NCBI GenBank assembly: GCA_014376885.1
Contig: JACMQR010000020.1
Span: 1 to 10,953 of the forward strand
Length of the DNA: 10,953 nt
Direction of reading: 5' to 3'
Source: Polaromonas sp.
GTDB taxonomy: Bacteria; Pseudomonadota; Gammaproteobacteria; Burkholderiales; Burkholderiaceae_C
Shown here: piece after piece, positions 4,279 to 10,953 of the stretch
How the letters are laid out: each line of letters opens with the position of its first letter
How positions within the stretch are numbered: the stretch's first letter is position 1
The notes under the pieces: model-generated
What the model was told of the DNA's origin: nothing
Seen by the model: the letters and a program-made list of their open reading frames with translations, nothing else
Databases searched by the model: none
Made by a program: the position numbers and the translations under genes

Positions 4279-4749
4279 CTACTGCCGTGCGCGTTTTTTA
4301 AGCCAGCGCATCAGCGCGCCGACCAGCGGCAGCTTTTCATACAGCTCCTCGGCCGCGTCCCAGTAGTCGCGGTGAAACTCCAGCAGCCCGGCGGCATTGA
4401 ACTTGAGGTGCGAGCCGCCCCGCACGGTCTGCAGCGCCTCGGTATCAAAGCGTTTGAAGCGGAAGTAAAAATCCCAGGTCAAAAAGCAGGCGTCGCCGTC
4501 CACGATGCAGCCGGTGACGACAAAGCGCGGCTGCTCGAGCGCCTCGTACATGTGGCTGAACACTTGCTGGATGCCTGGCAGGCCGTGCACCTCGTTGAAT
4601 GGGTCCTTGAAATAGGCATCAAGCGCATAAATTTCGTCCAGCCGTTCCAGGCTGGCGGGCGCGAGCTGCTCGAAAAACTCGACCACTCGCGTGGCTGCCT
4701 CCCGCATCGGTAGCGCTGGCGGCAGATGGTCGGCGGCGGCAGGCTTCAT
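4279..4749 (-). CDS. NTF2/SnoaL-like protein of the lipid-modification cluster
   Basis: A 156-residue cytosolic protein with the NTF2/SnoaL-like cone fold pattern. It has an N-terminal helix (about 15-40, VVEFFEQL...LDEIYALD), then YFKDPFNEV (46-54) with the 'F-x-DP' turn common in this family, then strands TWDFYFR (91-97) and an acidic HRDYWD (126-131). The ATG at 4749 is chosen because it starts 10 nt after the SDR stop. An in-frame start at 4791 would overlap the SDR gene by 32 nt. The family includes ketosteroid-isomerase-like enzymes and non-catalytic binding proteins, so the reaction cannot be named. In related clusters this protein accompanies the FAD, DUF1365 and Cfa genes, which suggests a role in the same lipid pathway. 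It is the last gene of the minus-strand set. Confidence 0.82.
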   Translation of the reverse strand: MKPAAADHLPPALPMREAATRVVEFFEQLAPASLERLDEIYALDAYFKDPFNEVHGLPGIQQVFSHMYEALEQPRFVVTGCIVDGDACFLTWDFYFRFKRFDTEALQTVRGGSHLKFNAAGLLEFHRDYWDAAEELYEKLPLVGALMRWLKKRARQ

Positions 4750-4759
4750 GGCGCGGTGC

Positions 4760-5530
4760 TCACAGCGCGGTGATTTTGCGCACGGCGGCAAAACGGGCGC
4801 GGTAGGGCAGCAGGCGCAGGGCCTTCATCCAGCGGGTAAAGCGCTTGGGAAAGTGAATTTCAAACTCCCCTTGGCGCCAGCCGCGCAAGATTTCCTGCGC
4901 GGCTTGTTCAGCAGTGATCAGGGCTGGCATGGTGAACTTGTTCTGGGCCGTCAACGACGTTTTGACAAAGCCCGGGCACACCAGGCTGACGCCGATGTGG
5001 CTGTCCTGCAGGTCCAGGTAGAGCGTCTCGGCCAGGTTGATCAGCGCCGCCTTGGTCGGGCCGTAGGCCAGGCTTTGCGGCAGGCCGGTGTAGCCGGCCA
5101 CGCTGCTGACCAGGCTGATGTGGCCCGACTGCTGCGCCAGCAGGCCCGGCAGCACGGCGTCGAGCAGGTAAAGCGCGCCGAGGTAGTTGACCTTGTTGTG
5201 CTGGAGCATGTCGGCCAGATCGAAGGCGGTGGCGCGCTGTTCCTTGTAGTGGCCGGCGCAGTACATCACCAGCGCCAGCGGTCCGGCGGCCAGCACGGTT
5301 TGCGCCGCTGCCTTCAGGGCCGCCGGGTCGGTGACGTCAAGCGCCAGCGCCTGCGCGCCCGGATGGCTGTCGGCAAAGCCGGTCAGTGCCGCTGCGTTGC
5401 GGGCCGAGACAAACACGGTCGCGCCCGCCGCATGCAGCGCATGCGCCGTGGCCTGGCCAATGCCGCTGGACGCACCAACCAGCCAGACATTTTTGCCGCG
5501 CCAGTCGGGCAGCAGGGGGTTAAAGGACAT
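4760..5530 (-). CDS. Short-chain dehydrogenase/reductase (SDR)
   Basis: A 256-residue NAD(P)-dependent oxidoreductase with a complete classical SDR fold. The nucleotide motif GASSGIG is at 19-25. ALDVTD (63-68) follows the expected acidic position, CAG at 91-93 replaces the usual NAG, and N115 is in HNKVNYLG. The catalytic set is S142/S143 (SLVSSVAG), Y156 and K160 (YGPTK), with PGFVKT at 187-192. The C-terminus is basic (230-256, several Arg/Lys), which might contact membrane or acidic lipid. The start is the ATG at 5530; a TTG two codons earlier is possible but less likely. NTF2-like gene starts 10 nt after it, so the two are surely co-transcribed. The substrate is probably a lipid intermediate, judged from neighbours only. 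Confidence 0.93.
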   Translation of the reverse strand: MSFNPLLPDWRGKNVWLVGASSGIGQATAHALHAAGATVFVSARNAAALTGFADSHPGAQALALDVTDPAALKAAAQTVLAAGPLALVMYCAGHYKEQRATAFDLADMLQHNKVNYLGALYLLDAVLPGLLAQQSGHISLVSSVAGYTGLPQSLAYGPTKAALINLAETLYLDLQDSHIGVSLVCPGFVKTSLTAQNKFTMPALITAEQAAQEILRGWRQGEFEIHFPKRFTRWMKALRLLPYRARFAAVRKITAL

Positions 5531-5550
5531 GGCCAATGCTTTTTCGTTAT

Positions 5551-5600
5551 GAATTTAATAGCTAAAAGTGCCCGCAGCGCTTGCACAAAAAGCTGATTTG
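5551..5600. repeat. Degenerate AT-rich repeat in the gap between DUF3833 and SDR genes
   Basis: The 90-bp gap 5531-5620 contains TTTAATAGCT (5554-5563), CAGCGCTTGCAC (5574-5585) and AAAAAGCTGATTT (5587-5599). It has the same building blocks as the element at 1608-1680 and stands out as AT-rich in a GC-rich window. It looks like a decayed copy of a family-specific intergenic repeat. On the minus strand its TATTAAAT stretch could act as a -10 for the SDR gene, but no good -35 is seen. It is the only non-overlapping junction of more than 10 nt in the minus-strand set. Confidence 0.45.
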
Positions 5601-5620
5601 ATGCCTTTTTCGGGGTATTT

Positions 5621-6190
5621 CTAGCGCTTCACGAACGACAGCGTGACCTCGCCCAGCTTGACGCCGAACTTGCTCATCTGCGCCTTGTTCAGCATCACCT
5701 TGTCGTTCATCAGGTACATCCAGTCGTCGAACTGCACCTCGATGATGCGGCCGTCCACTGGCAGCTTGAGCGTGTAGCCCCAGCGAAAGGCGTTGCCTTT
5801 TTCCTGGCCGACCGCCGTGCCCAGCACATCGTCCGCCGTGCCGGTAAAGCGCCCGTCGGGCTGGCGCTTGAGCGTCCAGATGCGGCGCTGCTTGGTGCCG
5901 TCGGAGTAGGTGAAGTCCTCGTCGAGCACGCCGGTTTCCATGCCGGGCGGTCCCTGCCAGTTGCATTTCATGACAACGGTGAAGCGCTTGACGACCTTGC
6001 CCGAGCGGTCGGTGAACAGGCCGTAGGCGTCCAGCGTGCCGCTGAAATACTGGCGCATGTCGAGCACTGGCTGCTCGGCGGCATAGTCGGCGACCTGTGG
6101 GCCGGCGCAGCCCGACAGCAACGCGGTCGACAGCATGAGCGTGGCCAGTGCGCCCTTGAAAACCGAGGCAGTGGGTTGGAGGCAGTTCAT
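5621..6190 (-). CDS. DUF3833 family lipoprotein
   Basis: A 189-residue exported lipoprotein. The N-terminus has a hydrophobic signal segment ending in the lipobox LLSGC (24-28), with C28 as the acylated residue followed by AGP. The absence of Asp at +2 suggests transfer to the outer membrane, by the usual Lol rule. The mature part matches DUF3833: YFSGTLDAYGLFTDRSGKV (about 48-66), then F-T-V-V-M-K-C-N-W, L-D-E-D-F-T-Y-S-D-G-T, and a beta-rich end with DDWMYLMND. Biochemical role unknown; the strand-rich pattern suggests a small beta-barrel. The start overlaps the MFS stop by ATGA (6187-6190), so it belongs to the same operon. Confidence 0.9.
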   Translation of the reverse strand: MNCLQPTASVFKGALATLMLSTALLSGCAGPQVADYAAEQPVLDMRQYFSGTLDAYGLFTDRSGKVVKRFTVVMKCNWQGPPGMETGVLDEDFTYSDGTKQRRIWTLKRQPDGRFTGTADDVLGTAVGQEKGNAFRWGYTLKLPVDGRIIEVQFDDWMYLMNDKVMLNKAQMSKFGVKLGEVTLSFVKR

Positions 6191-7512
6191 GGGACGGCGC
6201 TTTCAGAAGGTGGGACGATAAGAACCCAGGCGCTGCTTGCAGCCAGCAGCTTGAGCAGGCAGGGTAGCACGCAGTAGGCAATGACCAGCGCATCGAGTGC
6301 GGCAGCGCTGCGGCTGCCGGGCGCATAGCCAAACAGGGCCAGCAGCGGCAGCGCCAGACCGGCGGCCAGCGCCAGGTTGAGCTTGGTGGCGAAATTCCAC
6401 CAGCCAAAATAGGCGCCTTCGGACTGGCCGGACTGGCCGCTGGCCTGGATCACGCCGGCCAGCAGTGCGCCGGGCAGCGCCAGGTCGGTGCCCAGCGCCG
6501 CCCCGGACAGCGCGCAGATGATGGCAAACGCCAGCATGTCGCCCGCGCCAAGCTGCGATGCCCAGGCAAACACGCCAATCGCCAGCCCCATGCCTACCAG
6601 CCAGGTGCGCGCCAGCCCGAGCCGCTTGACGACCGCCAGCCAGAGCGGAATGGACAGCGCCGCCGCCAGAAAATAGCTGCCCAGAAACAGCGGCTCGAAG
6701 GCGGGCGGCGCTTGCAGGCGGTCCTGGATGAAAAACAGCACCAGCGTGGCCGGCACTGCGCTGGCGATGCCGTTGAGCATGAACACTCCCAGCAGCCGGT
6801 GAAAGGCGCGCGAGCGCAGCGGCAGCCACAAAGAGCCTGCTGCCGGTAGCCGGCTCGCGCGCTGCACTGCGGGTTCGGGCGCCCGGCACCAAGCCAGCCA
6901 GCCAGCCAGAAGCGCTATGAAAAAAATAGCTGTTGTCGCAGGCAGGCCAAGCACTGCCGGCGTAATGGATGCCACTACCACGCCCACCAGGCCCAGCCCT
7001 TCGCGCCAGGCGACGATGCGGCTGCGCTGGACCTCGTTGCCGCCGAGCATCGCGCCCCACGACTGGTGGGACACACTGAGCGCGCTGTAGGCGGCGTAGG
7101 TCAGCACCAGCATGGCGCCGGCCCAGGCGGCCAGGCCGACAGGAGAATCGCGCACGCCCTGCCAGGGAAAAAACAGCCCGGTAAAGCCCAGCGCCAGCAG
7201 CACCGCCGCCAGCGCGCCCAGACGGAGCACCGCGCGCAGCGAACGGGCAAAAAGCCGGTCGCTCAGGCGGCCCAGCAGCGGATCGATCAGCGCATCGAAC
7301 AGCCGCGCCGCCAGCAAAATCGCCCCCAGGGTGGCCAGCGGCATGCCGAACTCGCGCGCATAGTGGTTCGGCAAGATCACATACAGCGGCAGTGCCACAA
7401 AGGCCAGCGGCAGGCCGAGCAGCCCATAGGCCAGGCCGCTTCGCGTTGAGAAAGCGCCGGTTGTGCTGGCCTCATGCGCGGGCAGGGCGGGCGCGTCGGC
7501 CGGCGCGCTCAT
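6187..7512 (-). CDS. MFS transporter of the MelB/GPH (MFS_2) type
   Basis: A 441-residue inner-membrane protein with about 12 hydrophobic segments. DALIDPLLGRLSDR (73-86) is the hallmark of the glycoside-pentoside-hexuronide:cation symporter family, in which acidic residues equivalent to D73/D77 bind the coupling cation in MelB. HQSWGAMLG around 149-157 and the matching half-repeat in the C-terminal domain also fit. Bacterial GPH members usually carry sugars, but the vertebrate member MFSD2A carries lysophospholipids. Given the surrounding lipid genes, a lipid or lipid-precursor substrate is a reasonable inference and is unproven. Both ends overlap the neighbours by 4 bp. A GGTGA sequence about 9-13 nt before the ATG may serve as the RBS. 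Confidence 0.88.
   Translation of the reverse strand: MSAPADAPALPAHEASTTGAFSTRSGLAYGLLGLPLAFVALPLYVILPNHYAREFGMPLATLGAILLAARLFDALIDPLLGRLSDRLFARSLRAVLRLGALAAVLLALGFTGLFFPWQGVRDSPVGLAAWAGAMLVLTYAAYSALSVSHQSWGAMLGGNEVQRSRIVAWREGLGLVGVVVASITPAVLGLPATTAIFFIALLAGWLAWCRAPEPAVQRASRLPAAGSLWLPLRSRAFHRLLGVFMLNGIASAVPATLVLFFIQDRLQAPPAFEPLFLGSYFLAAALSIPLWLAVVKRLGLARTWLVGMGLAIGVFAWASQLGAGDMLAFAIICALSGAALGTDLALPGALLAGVIQASGQSGQSEGAYFGWWNFATKLNLALAAGLALPLLALFGYAPGSRSAAALDALVIAYCVLPCLLKLLAASSAWVLIVPPSESAVP
6893..6937. repeat. GCCA tetranucleotide tract and adjoining A7 run inside the MFS gene
   Basis: Four perfect GCCA copies (6893-6908) are followed by AGCGCTATG, seven A (6920-6926) and TAGCTG. The tract is in frame and encodes hydrophobic residues of a membrane segment. 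The AGCGCT...AAAATAGCT part resembles the AT-rich intergenic repeats at 1608 and 5551, so a fragment of such a repeat may have been absorbed into the coding sequence. Chance is also possible. Confidence 0.35.
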
Positions 7513-8108
7513 TCGCGGCTTTCACCGAGCAAGGCGGCGCGCAAGGGCAGCTCGGAGGTTTTGGGCGACAGCCAGATGCCGAAAAACAGCCGGCTGAATT
7601 CGGCGTTGCGAATCTCGCCGCTGGCCTGGCCGTTGACCCAGAAGGCGGCGCCTTCGTCCGGCCGGTGCAGGCCGGTGAGGCGGTCGCCCCGGCGCACATC
7701 GGGCAGCACCCGCAGCATCTCGGCCCCCCACTGGGCCGCCTGGTCGTCGCCGATGAGCTGGCTGCGGCGCATTTCCTTGAGGGACCGCTCGGCGATGTCC
7801 AGCGCCTTGAAGTCGCGCAGGTAGGCCAGCTCCAGCGCCAGCGTAAAAGCGCCATAGCGGGCCGGCGCGAAACCGGCCGGCGCCCACAGGCGCGCGTCGT
7901 ACACCTCGAAGCCCCAGAACTTCAGCCGCCCCCTGCCGATGAGCCTGGCCTGGGGCAGGGAAGTTTTCAGCTCGGCCGGCAGGTCGGGGATGCCGGCCGC
8001 CGCTGGCGCGCCCGATGCGGCCGGCTGCGCCGGTGCGCTAGCGGCAGCGCCCAGCAGCAGATGCGCCAGGCAGGCCTGGAGCGCTCTGCGCCGGCTGGTG
8101 CGTGTCAT
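7509..8108 (-). CDS. Exported chalcone-isomerase-like protein
   Basis: A 199-residue protein with an N-terminal export signal: basic TRTSRRR, hydrophobic core about 9-24, and a likely cut near AQPA (27-30). The SRRRAL stretch is a little Tat-like, but Sec is as likely. The mature domain matches the bacterial chalcone-isomerase-like family: GRGRLKFWGFEVYDARLWAP (58-77), LELAYLRDF (92-100), W-x-x-E-M-L-R-V-L-P-D-V, GEIRNAEFSRLFFGIWLSP (164-182) and a terminal LRAALLG. Family members with this fold bind fatty acids in plants (FAP proteins), and bacterial ones do not make flavonoids. Here it is probably a periplasmic lipid-binding partner; that role is inferred. It sits between the methyltransferase and the transporter with 4-bp overlaps on both sides. 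Confidence 0.88.
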   Translation of the reverse strand: MTRTSRRRALQACLAHLLLGAAASAPAQPAASGAPAAAGIPDLPAELKTSLPQARLIGRGRLKFWGFEVYDARLWAPAGFAPARYGAFTLALELAYLRDFKALDIAERSLKEMRRSQLIGDDQAAQWGAEMLRVLPDVRRGDRLTGLHRPDEGAAFWVNGQASGEIRNAEFSRLFFGIWLSPKTSELPLRAALLGESRE

Positions 8109-9346
8109 GGCCGCCGGCGCAGGGTGAACTGCATGACGCTGGTGTTGGCTTGCGCAAAAGCGGCTTCGCAGTACGCCAGGTAAAACTCCCAGATGCGCAT
8201 GAAGCGCTTGTCAAAGCCGAGCTGCAGCACCCGCGCCTCCTGAGCCAGAAAAGCCTCCCGCCACAGACGCAGGGTGCGCGCATAGTCCGGGCCGAATGAA
8301 AACTCGTCGGTGATGTCGAAGCCGGCGGCATTGGCCTGGACGCGAAACTCCCGCGGGCAGGGCAGGCAGCCGCCCGGAAAGATGTACTGCTGGATGAAGT
8401 CGGTCGAGCCGATGTAGCGCTCGAACAATTCGTCGGCGATCACGATGGTCTGGATGCAGGCCTGGCCGCCGGGTTTGAGCAGGCGCGCCACGGTCTGGAA
8501 ATACTCGGGCCAGTATTCGCGGCCGACCGCCTCGACCATCTCGATCGAGCAGACCGCGTCAAACGGCGCGTCCGGCGTGGTTTTGCCAATGTCGCGGTAG
8601 TCCTGCAGGCGCAGCTCTGCCTTGCCGGACAGGCCCAGGCGGGCCATGCGCTGGTTGGCCCAGTCGAGCTGCTCGGTGCTCAATGTCACGCCGACCAGCG
8701 CGGCGCCGAATTCGGTGGTGGCCATTTCAGCCAGCGCGCCCCAGCCGCAGCCGATCTCCAGCACCCGGTCGCCCGGCCTGACCTGCGCCATGCGCAAGGC
8801 GCGGCGCACCTTGGCATGCTGGCCGTCCACCATCGTGGTCTCGGGCGACGCGAAGATGGCCGACGAGTAGTTCATCGTGCCGTCCAGCCACAGGGCATAG
8901 AACGCATTGCCCAGGTCGTAATGGGCATGGATGTTTTTCTGGCTGTTGGCCCGGGTGTTGCGGTTGAGCAGGTGCTTGATGCGGTAGGCCAGGCGGCCCA
9001 GCCAGCTGCCGTAGATCGCGCTTTCGACTTCCTTGCGGTTGACGATGAGCAACTCCAGCAGGTCGGCCAGATGCGGCGTGGTCCAGTCGCCGGCAATGTA
9101 GCTTTCGGCAAAACCGATGTCGCCCGAGCGCAGCGCGGCAGCGCACGGGTTCCAGTTGTGCAGGTGCAAGCTGGCCATGGGCGCGGCGCCCGAGCCAAAG
9201 CGCTGCAGCGAGCCGCCGGGCAGCTGCACCGTCAGCGTGCCGTGGCTCAGGCGGCGGAGCATTTTCAGGGCGGTGCGCGCGGCGCCGGGCGCGTCGCGGG
9301 GAATCGGCTGGCTGGCGGGCAGGGAAGAGGGGCTCAGAGTGGTCAT
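8105..9346 (-). CDS. Cfa-family SAM-dependent fatty-acyl-phospholipid methyltransferase
   Basis: A 413-residue enzyme acting on unsaturated acyl chains of membrane phospholipid. It has a Cfa N-terminal domain (about 30-135), HAHYDLGNAFY (140-150), the SAM-binding motif LEIGCGWGALAE (196-207), and GVTLSTEQ (219-226). IFPGGCLPCP (322-331) and FGPDY (351-355) complete the Cfa signature. Compared with E. coli Cfa, E272 (E239) and Y355 (Y317) are kept. The bicarbonate-binding C139 and H266 correspond to S162 (MNYSSA) and Q299 (CIQTI). The product may therefore be a methylated or methylene chain and not a cyclopropane. Start: ATG at 9346, overlapping the DUF1365 stop. A longer open frame upstream (to 9796) is a shadow of DUF1365. 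No Shine-Dalgarno is visible, so translation probably depends on coupling. Confidence 0.94.
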   Translation of the reverse strand: MTTLSPSSLPASQPIPRDAPGAARTALKMLRRLSHGTLTVQLPGGSLQRFGSGAAPMASLHLHNWNPCAAALRSGDIGFAESYIAGDWTTPHLADLLELLIVNRKEVESAIYGSWLGRLAYRIKHLLNRNTRANSQKNIHAHYDLGNAFYALWLDGTMNYSSAIFASPETTMVDGQHAKVRRALRMAQVRPGDRVLEIGCGWGALAEMATTEFGAALVGVTLSTEQLDWANQRMARLGLSGKAELRLQDYRDIGKTTPDAPFDAVCSIEMVEAVGREYWPEYFQTVARLLKPGGQACIQTIVIADELFERYIGSTDFIQQYIFPGGCLPCPREFRVQANAAGFDITDEFSFGPDYARTLRLWREAFLAQEARVLQLGFDKRFMRIWEFYLAYCEAAFAQANTSVMQFTLRRRP

Positions 9347-10128
9347 CGCGTCACAGAGTTTGTGGGAAGGTCGGGTTTGCTGATGAAGGGAATGCGTTTG
9401 CGCCACAGCCTGAAGGCTTGCCAGTGGATGCGCGCCACCACGCCCCAGGTCATGGCCGGATAGCGCCACAGCGCCTTGCGCAGGCTGGCCGGGGTGACCG
9501 GCTCTAGGACGCCGCTGACGCTGGTTTGCAGCAGCGGTCCGACAGCGTCGCCTGCATGGTCGTGGTAGTCGATGCGCGCCAGGGTGGAGCGCACGCCGTT
9601 GCGCTCGGTTTGCAGGAAACGAAACCGGTAGTTGCCGGCCAGGGTGCAAAAGGGCGAGACATGGAACACCTTGTCGGCGGTGAGCAGCTGGCCGTATTGT
9701 GGCGCATCGAGCAAATAGCAGTGGCGCTGCCCGAAGGTGTTGTTCACCTCGACGACGATGGCGCGCAGGCTGCCATCCGGCCGGTGGCAGTACCAAAAGC
9801 TCACCGGCTTGAAGGCATAGCCGAGCACCCGCGGGTAGGTGTGCAGCCAGACTTCGCCGCCGGCGTCCTCCACGCCTTCGCGCTGCAAGAGCGCGTCCAG
9901 CCAGGCCAGGGCGTTGCCGCCGCCGTCGCCATGGTCGCTGTCAAAAAAGCTCAGGGCGCTGCGCCGGTTGTGCGCCAGGGCGCCGCTGCCATTGGCCTGC
10001 AGGCTGCGCATGGGCAGCAGCAAAAAATAGGTGGGGTAGTTGAAGGTGTTGCCGACCGGCCGCAGGCGGCGGTGCATGACCTGGCCGAAGCCGATCAGCG
10101 GCGCGTCTGCAACCGGCGGGTGGCTCAT
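9343..10128 (-). CDS. DUF1365 family protein
   Basis: A 261-residue protein, full length for DUF1365. The family motifs are clear: GQVMHRRLRPVGNTFNYPTY (15-34), PRVLGYAFKPVSFWYCH (99-115), EVNNTFGQRH (127-136) and KVFHVSPF (153-160). The conserved His, Cys and acidic residues could suggest an enzyme, but no reaction is established to my knowledge. DUF1365 genes almost always sit beside the FAD amine-oxidase-like and Cfa-like genes, as here, which argues for a shared step in fatty-acyl modification. It overlaps both neighbours by ATGA. No Shine-Dalgarno precedes the ATG at 10128. Confidence 0.93.
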   Translation of the reverse strand: MSHPPVADAPLIGFGQVMHRRLRPVGNTFNYPTYFLLLPMRSLQANGSGALAHNRRSALSFFDSDHGDGGGNALAWLDALLQREGVEDAGGEVWLHTYPRVLGYAFKPVSFWYCHRPDGSLRAIVVEVNNTFGQRHCYLLDAPQYGQLLTADKVFHVSPFCTLAGNYRFRFLQTERNGVRSTLARIDYHDHAGDAVGPLLQTSVSGVLEPVTPASLRKALWRYPAMTWGVVARIHWQAFRLWRKRIPFISKPDLPTNSVTR

Positions 10129-10953
10129 GCCGGCACGCCGTGCAGGGCCTGAGCGACCGGCGCGTGCCGGGCATGCTGCGCCAGCAGCAGCCGGGCGGCC
10201 TGCAGGCCCGACTTCAGCCCATCTTCATGAAAGCCGTAGCCGGTCCAGGCGCCGCAAAAATAGCTGTGCGCCTGGCCTTGCAGGCCGGGTAACGCCTGCT
10301 GCGCCCGGGTGGCGGCCAGGTCGAACACCGGATGCATGTAGTCGTATTCGCCCAGGATGTGCTGGTGCGCAATCTCGCGCACCGGATTGAGCGACACCAC
10401 CAGCGGCTGTGCAAAGGGCAGCGGCTGCAGCATATTGAGCAGGTAATGCAGGCAGACGCCGGACGATTCGCGGTCGGCGTGCGCTGCGCGCTCGTAGTTC
10501 CAGGCGGCCCAGGCAAGCTTTCTTTGCGGCAGCACCGCGCTGTCGGTGTGCAGCACCGCCCGGTTGGGCTGGTAGCGGATGGCGCCCAGCGTGGCGCGCT
10601 CGGCCGGGCTGGCCTGGGCCAGCAGAGCCAGCGCCTGGTCGGAATGCACGGCCAGCACCAGCTGGTCGAAATGCTCGACCTGGTTGCGGGTGACGATGCG
10701 CACGCCGCCGCGCAGCATGCTGGCATCGCGCTCGATGCGTTCCACCGGCGTGTTCAGCCGCTTGTCGGCAATGCCGGCGGTGATCTTGTCCACGTAATGG
10801 CGCGCCCCGCCACGCACCGTCCACCACTGCGGCCGGTCGGTAACCTGGATCAAGCCGTGGTTGTGGCAAAAACGAACCATGGTGGCCACCGGGAACTGCA
10901 GCATCTGGTCGGTTGGGCAGGACCAGATGCTGCCCATCATCGGCAAAAAATAC
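10125..10953 (-). CDS. FAD-dependent amine-oxidase-like oxidoreductase (C-terminal part, cut by window)
   Basis: The frame is open to the window edge, so only the C-terminal 275 or so residues are seen; the family is usually about 420-450 long. The N-terminal GxGxxG FAD-binding motif must lie to the right. Visible family motifs are PMMGSIWS, RFCHNHGL, RPQWWTVRGGARHYV with a GG turn, and LAVHSDQAL in the second half of the FAD-binding region. The C-terminal FAD-contacting stretch FCGAWTGYGFHEDG lies at about 10218-10259. The family groups with NAD(P)-binding Rossmann/amine-oxidase proteins such as carotenoid and fatty-acyl desaturases. Next to Cfa and DUF1365 it is likely a fatty-acyl desaturase or oxidase. 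It is the first gene seen of the six-gene overlapping operon. A TTG at 10946 is not the real start. Confidence 0.92.
   Translation of the reverse strand, partial: YFLPMMGSIWSCPTDQMLQFPVATMVRFCHNHGLIQVTDRPQWWTVRGGARHYVDKITAGIADKRLNTPVERIERDASMLRGGVRIVTRNQVEHFDQLVLAVHSDQALALLAQASPAERATLGAIRYQPNRAVLHTDSAVLPQRKLAWAAWNYERAAHADRESSGVCLHYLLNMLQPLPFAQPLVVSLNPVREIAHQHILGEYDYMHPVFDLAATRAQQALPGLQGQAHSYFCGAWTGYGFHEDGLKSGLQAARLLLAQHARHAPVAQALHGVPA

Follow-up and report, generated by a model that had tools for sequence, protein, structure and literature searches.

What do the envelope proteins encoded beside the genes of furan fatty acid synthesis do? The question is raised by a stretch of 10,953 nucleotides of Polaromonas sp. 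(assembly GCA_014376885.1, contig JACMQR010000020.1), called the window below. Furan fatty acids are made by known enzymes, and the question concerns their movement, renewal or disposal as sacrificial antioxidants. The furan fatty-acid operon described here is a variant of a known system, and its new aspects are the predicted folds of the DUF3833 and CHI-like proteins, the linkage of DUF3833 with DUF1365, and the mutual exclusion of an MFS carrier and DUF2878. The little-studied envelope proteins that accompany the furan genes in many bacteria seem suited to carrying or recycling lipids. The reading that we prefer, with modest confidence, combines furan fatty-acid synthesis with an envelope module that would handle these lipids or their oxidation products, more probably by inward salvage than by export.

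Structure of the operon

The original prediction of eight consecutive minus-strand genes, six of them joined by ATGA, is confirmed by the coordinates, and a Pfam search of the ORF table, which holds stop-to-stop frames rather than gene calls, returned for each of the eight the family stated earlier:

10125..10953, minus strand: UfaD-like FAD-dependent fatty-acyl desaturase (Pfam Amine_oxidase, 6.3e-7; RSP1091/UfaD position, PMC7380195)
9343..10128, minus strand: UfaO-like DUF1365 protein, 261 aa (Pfam DUF1365, 2.9e-79)
8105..9346, minus strand: UfaM-like fatty-acyl methyltransferase, 413 aa (Pfam CMAS, 3.6e-83; Gln for His)
7509..8108, minus strand: CHI-fold protein, 199 aa, with an N-terminal signal-peptide-like stretch (Pfam Chalcone_3)
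6187..7512, minus strand: MFS_2 (GPH type) carrier, 441 aa (Pfam MFS_2, 1e-48)
5621..6190, minus strand: DUF3833 lipoprotein, 189 aa, lipobox LSGC (Pfam DUF3833)
4760..5530, minus strand: short-chain dehydrogenase/reductase (SDR), RSP1087 position (Pfam adh_short, 4.4e-36; start ATG 5530)
4279..4749, minus strand: SnoaL_2/NTF2-like small protein, 156 aa (Pfam SnoaL_2, 4.9e-14; start ATG 4749)

The first six genes, from UfaD-like to DUF3833, are linked by five 4-base ATGA overlaps; 90 bases separate DUF3833 from SDR, and 10 bases SDR from SnoaL_2. The UfaD-like gene is represented by its C-terminal 275 residues, the 5' part being lost at the end of the contig (C339). A 22-base stretch between DUF3833 and SDR, considered as a dispersed repeat, proved not to be one: the genome of the window has a single copy with up to 2 mismatches allowed.

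The furan fatty-acid trio

By homology, the first three genes would correspond to the published furan fatty-acid trio UfaD/UfaO/UfaM (PMC7380195); from Pfam families and gene order, an FAD desaturase, a DUF1365 oxygenase and a Cfa-related methylase are adjacent in the window. Three genes were enough for furan fatty acid with both the R. sphaeroides and the R. palustris genes, and DUF1365 is present in UfaO homologs (PMC7380195); the UfaO-like protein is, by homology, a putative furan-ring-forming oxygenase. The furan-type acyl modification that had been proposed for these genes is supported by their families, their order and their homology to UfaM, UfaD and UfaO. A literature search returned no paper combining Polaromonas and furan fatty acid.

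The UfaM-like gene is the sole CMAS match in its genome (78% complete). In the alignment, all 151 trio-linked Cfa-like proteins have Gln at the conserved His position of cyclopropane synthases. His occupies it in the solved cyclopropane synthases 5z9o and 7qos and in 12 of 13 unlinked full-length Cfa proteins; the remaining one belongs to a trio that is truncated where its locus ends. Gln for His may thus be a mark of UfaM. The Cys position does not discriminate, being Ser, Ala or Gly in 151/151 linked proteins and, among the 12 unlinked proteins with His, in 8 as well.

Conservation and linkage

Within the genus, 68 of 87 genomes have DUF1365; it is absent from 19, including 11 of the 49 best assemblies. 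The order UfaD-UfaO-Cfa-CHI-MFS-DUF3833-SDR is kept in all 20 Polaromonas loci fetched from these 68 DUF1365 loci, which were picked for long contigs. The conserved linkage of the CHI, MFS and DUF3833 genes with the enzyme genes, for which a co-occurrence survey had been suggested, was therefore found, and the operon arrangement is beyond chance.

Among 398 genomes, DUF1365 is present in 107 of the 113 with DUF3833 versus 46 of the 285 without it; conversely, 6/113 DUF3833 genomes lack DUF1365, and 46/153 DUF1365 genomes lack DUF3833. Only 48 of the 80 DUF3833-anchored loci (one each from 80 of the 113 genomes, chosen mainly by score) have DUF1365 within their 19.5 kb, a count that is itself favoured, because in genomes with two hits (e.g., G264, G145, G297, G349, G416, G129, G255, G113) it was mostly the copy near DUF1365 that was taken. 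The last three proportions, 6/113, 46/153 and 48/80, count against the preferred reading, as do three loci (L157-L159) with the trio and CHI and without DUF3833. The Fisher and hypergeometric values of the survey ignore phylogeny, and its named loci (L162-L241), the 80 best of 585, are all close to the window and share some contigs with L122-L141. In all 31 CHI-bearing DUF3833-anchored loci, CHI lies directly before DUF3833 (22 loci) or with only MFS between them (9 loci); in 6 of these 31, DUF1365 is outside the locus. The survey ties DUF3833, DUF2878, the CHI-fold protein and the MFS carrier to the furan pathway, and it points to genes whose deletion would directly test the lipid-handling question.

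Envelope proteins and proposed direction of transport

The DUF3833 protein is predicted to form an antiparallel calycin-like beta-barrel of 8-10 strands, within the calycin/lipocalin fold, and the CHI-like protein to have a CHI/FAP fold plus a signal peptide. The family assignment of both rests on these predicted folds, since for neither did a profile search against the sequences of solved structures turn up a credible relative. CHI-fold proteins are known mainly for their roles in plant flavonoid and fatty-acid binding, and the one described here is probably a periplasmic fatty-acid/lipid binder. Examined with the catalytic/carboxylate Arg of CHI and FAP in mind, the alignment shows Tyr70 and Tyr96 in 126/126 CHI-like proteins, Arg98 in 119 and Arg190 in 122. 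A lipobox, by a loose pattern, is present in 59 of 82 DUF3833 matches of phylum-wide loci. Its loss showed no link with the loss of CHI when compared by eye: L083 and L084 have CHI without a lipobox, L057 and L062 the reverse. The signal-peptide-like stretch and the lipobox LSGC agree with the exported CHI-fold protein and the lipoprotein originally proposed. Passages of PMC8465259 describe an amplicon in which a cfa end adjoins a DUF3833 lipoprotein gene, and DUF3833 is mentioned in a passage of PMC10974088.

The Pfam match (MFS_2, 1e-48) likewise upholds an inner-membrane carrier. Asp73 and Asp77 are found in 123 of 126 aligned MFS proteins, the other 3 being gapped, and Lys377 in 99%. Cation-site aspartates of the MelB type are characteristic of inward symport, and also of MFSD2A, a protein that carries lysolipid inward. 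Inward movement is favoured because the MFS protein keeps these residues, and export, as first suggested, becomes only one option. The possibility that the module takes furan lipid outward, from inner to outer membrane, as newly made phospholipid or as free fatty acid, seems rather unlikely: although gene content fits it equally, and the frequent lipobox and the predicted export of the CHI-fold protein speak for it, the conserved aspartates point the other way, and nothing indicated a dependence of outer-membrane furan lipid on the module.

The operon-type MFS occurs in 36 of the 80 DUF3833 genomes and DUF2878 in 33; none has both and 11 have neither (hypergeometric 2.4e-13, a value that ignores phylogeny). 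These counts depend on a score limit (235 vs 166) chosen after the scores were seen, with three operon-type genomes (f67) at only ~240 bits and only 21 candidates scored in many genomes. In 27 of the 36 genomes the MFS lies inside the DUF3833 locus. The split tracks families, both types occurring in family f16 only, which counts against the preferred reading. DUF2878 was not found in the genome of the window by a search whose controls also gave no match; the profile does match across the 80 genomes. A literature search returned nothing relevant on furan fatty-acid transport.

Comparison with known systems and regulation

In R. sphaeroides, RSP1091-1087 together with ufaM (RSP2144) provide UfaD, UfaO, a GPH-type MFS, the DUF3833 position and SDR in the order of the window, whose MFS_2, DUF3833 and SDR match RSP1089-1087 by family, order and length. 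Unlike that system, the window carries the Cfa-like gene within the operon and also encodes the CHI-fold and SnoaL-like proteins. Single deletions of RSP1087, 1088 and 1089 left the fatty-acid profile unchanged (PMC7380195); therefore MFS_2, DUF3833 and SDR would act after synthesis or elsewhere, and these three are dispensable in R. sphaeroides for making furan fatty acid. Nor were they needed for oxidant protection in one inhibition-zone assay, where RSP1091 and RSP1090 without 1089-1087 restored wild-type singlet-oxygen resistance (passages of PMC3818230). This result counts against the preferred reading, as does the fact that no phenotype of the envelope genes was seen in the literature examined.

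The same enzyme families form a predicted operon in Aeromonas salmonicida (NTF2-SDR-FAD-DUF1365-cfa-DUF2878), of a function unknown to its authors; unlike in the window, DUF2878 replaces MFS, and DUF3833 and chalcone isomerase occur nowhere in the paper (PMC10012899). Gamma-type loci in our survey begin with NTF2-SDR and carry DUF2878 in the place of MFS. The export half had been called the least described part: it is indeed little studied, but this Aeromonas cluster and the membership of RSP1087 and RSP1088 in the core RpoE-ChrR regulon (passages of PMC5507510) were already published. In Shewanella oneidensis, SO_3386-SO_3374 are described in part of PMC4336711 as one operon with a photolyase (phrB), cfa and a predicted RpoE2 promoter; likened to it by description, the window differs in having no photolyase. 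The strongly light-induced nine-gene polycistron of Pseudomonas mendocina resembles the window in joining ufaM with FAD and SDR genes, and differs in its LitR/LOV setting, with MFS and DUF3833 unnamed in the passages concerned (PMC9758184).

The RpoE-ChrR setting invoked in the original prediction is not supported for the Burkholderiales tested, where, unlike in R. sphaeroides, neither ChrR over the cut-off nor an ECF11-type promoter was found. ChrR over the cut-off occurs in 0 of 31 genomes (that of the window, 78% complete, and 30 relatives), with weak partial matches in 14 of them, the window's own included (1.4e-8, profile 85-185); among DUF3833 genomes it occurs in 54/80, and in 0 of the 9 Burkholderiales among these. 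In loci L103-L107, which have the RSP1091-1087 gene order, ChrR lies 0.67-0.80 kb from UfaD. The ECF11 promoter was sought in relatives, as the upstream region falls outside the window. TGATC-N16-19-CGTA precedes UfaD in 0/20 Polaromonas and 0/69 named loci, and the peroxidase gene in 0/19 and 0/47, the named loci being drawn from the best 80 of 585 and the 69 being mostly Burkholderiales that overlap with the 20 Polaromonas loci. The same pattern was positive in 6/14 alpha, 8/14 gamma and 5/9 other loci, in groups picked by hand.

The module thus remains linked in relatives in which a search for the usual regulator gave no match over the cut-off. This persistence argues against mere co-regulated neighbours, that is, stress genes sharing an ancestral RpoE-ChrR promoter and acting in unrelated steps, as do the mutual exclusion of MFS and DUF2878 and the retention of CHI with DUF3833 away from the trio. 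Despite the dispensability of RSP1087-1089 for synthesis and in the one resistance assay, and despite a genome (G180) where DUF3833, DUF2878 and DUF1365 lie >100 kb apart, we consider this explanation improbable.

Proposed pathway

CHI-like and calycin-like folds bind haem and other ligands too, a point against the preferred reading. Binding of envelope porphyrin photosensitisers by these proteins, lowering singlet-oxygen formation, is improbable, as the DUF3833 protein of the window contains no His, no His column reaches 90% in either family, and 51 of 126 CHI-like proteins retain His148.

Gene content, order and linkage are shown, as is the exclusion between MFS and DUF2878, and the folds are predicted. 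For synthesis followed by inward salvage, we infer the ligands, localisation, transport direction and the SDR and SnoaL roles as follows. By homology to UfaM, UfaD and UfaO, the cytoplasmic trio would methylate, desaturate and oxygenate acyl chains of membrane phospholipids, giving a methylated furan fatty acid, a kind of lipid reactive towards singlet oxygen. The envelope module would act after synthesis. In the inner membrane it would have a cation-coupled MFS_2 carrier, replaced by DUF2878 in other lineages; in the periplasm, a carrier of CHI fold; and, probably on the outer membrane, a lipoprotein of calycin fold. These proteins may bind and move either furan acyl chains or what remains once such chains are consumed, namely lyso- and oxidised lipids, while SDR and the SnoaL-like protein, with the upstream glutathione peroxidase in relatives, would clear oxidation products. 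Taken as a whole, the original interpretation is partly supported.

More tentatively, furan-fatty-acid bacteria may possibly own a dedicated trans-envelope lipid route retrieving spent, oxidised or lyso-lipids for repair. Its inner-membrane protein would be interchangeable, either an MFSD2A-like MFS_2 or DUF2878, and would work with a carrier of CHI fold in the periplasm and with DUF3833 as a lipocalin-like lipoprotein. If true, CHI-fold proteins would serve bacteria as periplasmic chaperones for lipids in the oxidant response.

Upstream genes

Glutathione peroxidase is the first gene in 19 of the 20 fetched Polaromonas loci (Pfam family checked in L126 only). A k-mer enrichment search for a conserved operator of the Polaromonas operon gave no clear palindrome; purine-rich matches were seen. 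A divergent TetR gene adjoins UfaD in 0/20 fetched congener loci and in ten other loci (L049, L054, L160, L177, L180, L182, L186, L189, L200, and L216), among which L182 is labelled Polaromonas.

Operon structure and linkage of the envelope genes

4279-10953, minus strand: eight-gene operon, in the order FAD (UfaD-like), DUF1365 (UfaO-like), Cfa-like (CMAS, UfaM-like), CHI-like (Chalcone_3), MFS_2, DUF3833, SDR and SnoaL_2/NTF2-like genes

The eight genes of the original prediction were confirmed, families included, on this contig (C339), which the window spans in full, of a source genome of 2.59 Mb that is 78% complete. Among the best-ranking protein matches that bear an organism name, most come from Polaromonas. 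Genes one to six are coupled by five ATGA overlaps, followed by 90 bases to the SDR gene and 10 bases to SnoaL_2; the FAD gene is truncated at the contig end.

Linkage of the CHI, MFS and DUF3833 genes to the FAD/DUF1365/Cfa trio, proposed earlier as a subject for survey, was observed in all 20 fetched Polaromonas loci, which share the order UfaD-UfaO-Cfa-CHI-MFS-DUF3833-SDR, with a SnoaL-like gene detected in 15; the 20 come from 68 DUF1365-containing genomes among 87 of the genus. Across 398 Pseudomonadota genomes, DUF3833 was found in 113, DUF1365 in 153, and both in 107. In 80 DUF3833-anchored loci (one each from 80 of the 113 genomes, chosen mainly by score, and mostly the copy near DUF1365 in genomes with two DUF3833 matches, which favours linkage), DUF1365 lay within the same 19.5 kb in 48. 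CHI was present in 31 of the 80: in 22 it is the gene immediately preceding DUF3833, and in nine MFS alone separates the two. Six of the 31 contained no DUF1365. Twenty loci from genomes without a DUF3833 match held Cfa in 19 cases, CHI in three, MFS in one and DUF2878, a predicted membrane protein (PF11086), in six.

Probable furan fatty acid genes

The enzymatic half of the operon is already known. According to PMC7380195, R. sphaeroides UfaM, UfaD (RSP1091) and UfaO (RSP1090, DUF1365) suffice to convert phospholipid cis-vaccenate to a methylated furan fatty acid, their R. palustris counterparts being RPA2569-2571; the families of the window trio are identical. The window Cfa-like protein, the sole CMAS match in its genome, has Gln at the position of His in the solved cyclopropane synthases 5z9o and 7qos. 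Gln occupies this position in all 151 Cfa-like proteins linked to a DUF1365 or FAD gene, whereas His was found in 12 of 13 unlinked frames (15 of at least 300 residues, less two weak matches of 25 and 28 bits), the thirteenth (L167) being a trio member cut by the locus end. At the sequence level, this mark sets the window protein apart from cyclopropane synthases. The adjoining Cys position is no such mark, since Cys is absent from 151 of 151 linked and also 8 of 12 unlinked proteins, which slightly lowers confidence in the best explanation given below.

Regulation and upstream neighbours

The RpoE-ChrR setting named in the original prediction was upheld for alpha and many gamma relatives, but not for this lineage. 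ChrR scored above the cut-off in 54 of the 80 DUF3833 genomes, and the RpoE-ChrR promoter motif was found in 6 of 14 alpha, 8 of 14 gamma and 5 of 9 other loci, the background rate being 0.009 per 700 bases. In contrast, no ChrR exceeded the cut-off in the 31 genomes of this lineage, the source genome included (weak partial matches in 14), and no motif preceded UfaD in the 20 Polaromonas loci or in 69 named loci from the best 80 of 585. In ten loci, mostly from Burkholderiales, a divergent TetR gene is present in its stead, beside UfaD in, for example, L180, L182 and L216. In locus L199 an inverted repeat, ACTGATTG..CAATCAGT, was seen by eye before UfaD.

A glutathione peroxidase gene precedes UfaD in 19 of the 20 Polaromonas loci (L126:11665-12285 and equivalents in L122-L141) and was found in 47 of the 80 named loci (the best 80 of 585). 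In 17 of the 20, a divergent di-iron-type protein that weakly matches FA_desaturase_2 and AurF lies nearby (L126:12476-13474), possibly a further acyl-chain oxygenase or desaturase; both proteins were identified by Pfam in L126. In R. capsulatus, too, a glutathione peroxidase operon adjoins rpoE-chrR (PMC7074977), and in Shewanella a periplasmic glutathione peroxidase depends on RpoE2 (PMC4336711). Farther upstream, L126:14363-19499 encodes a ketoacyl synthase, a reductase of the NAD_binding_4 family and an RND transporter; these may form a cluster of their own for a lipid or polyene.

Proposed role of the envelope module

In the alphaproteobacterial-type loci L103-L107, UfaD-UfaO are followed by MFS_2, DUF3833 and SDR, with chrR 0.67-0.80 kb from UfaD. 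This matches the organisation published for RSP1091-1087, which lie upstream of rpoE-chrR (PMC3818230); RSP1089 carries the annotation GPH symporter (PMC7074977). PMC3818230 describes RSP1089-1087 as restricted to Rhodobacteraceae; in the present survey UfaD-UfaO, MFS and DUF3833 occur together in 26 of the 80 DUF3833-anchored loci, from 11 families. In a delta-chrR strain, in-frame deletion of RSP1087, 1088 or 1089, each on its own, left the fatty acid profile unaltered (PMC7380195), and after deletion of the operon RSP1091 and RSP1090 alone restored singlet-oxygen resistance (PMC3818230). Thus synthesis does not require RSP1087-1089, and neither does resistance in that assay.

The best explanation, toward which we lean with modest confidence, is that the trio makes a furan fatty acid and the envelope module handles the resulting lipids, inward salvage being preferred over export. 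The module would act on envelope lipids after furan synthesis. Export by the module is possible; inward salvage is favoured as the direction of the putative lipid movement because the MFS is of symporter type, a peroxidase heads the operon in relatives, and the module is dispensable for synthesis.

The gene set is partly known, from the core RpoE-ChrR regulon (PMC5507510), an Aeromonas cluster with DUF2878 (PMC10012899) and a cfa-DUF3833 neighbourhood (PMC8465259). Among the literature matches listed, we met no account of the CHI-fold protein as part of the set, of a barrel fold in DUF3833, of the mutual exclusion of MFS and DUF2878, or of the ChrR-free, peroxidase-headed operon form.

As to that exclusion, gamma-type loci carry DUF2878 between Cfa and CHI or DUF3833, where Burkholderiales carry MFS. 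In 80 whole genomes, operon-type MFS (at least 235 bits; next score 166) was found in 36, DUF2878 in 33, both in none and neither in 11. We infer a swap of one lipid-handling membrane protein for another. A single family (f16) has both types, in different genomes; since the split otherwise follows families, independent switches may be few.

The CHI place before DUF3833 is in some loci taken by another exported-looking protein of ~250 aa (L081:10184-10915; L090:9937-10746, the latter with no Pfam match), relatives of which are likewise close to the trio in L146-L149. Outside the window, the source genome encodes one more Chalcone_3 protein, a typical one (G000:C192:2696-3199, E 2.3e-48).
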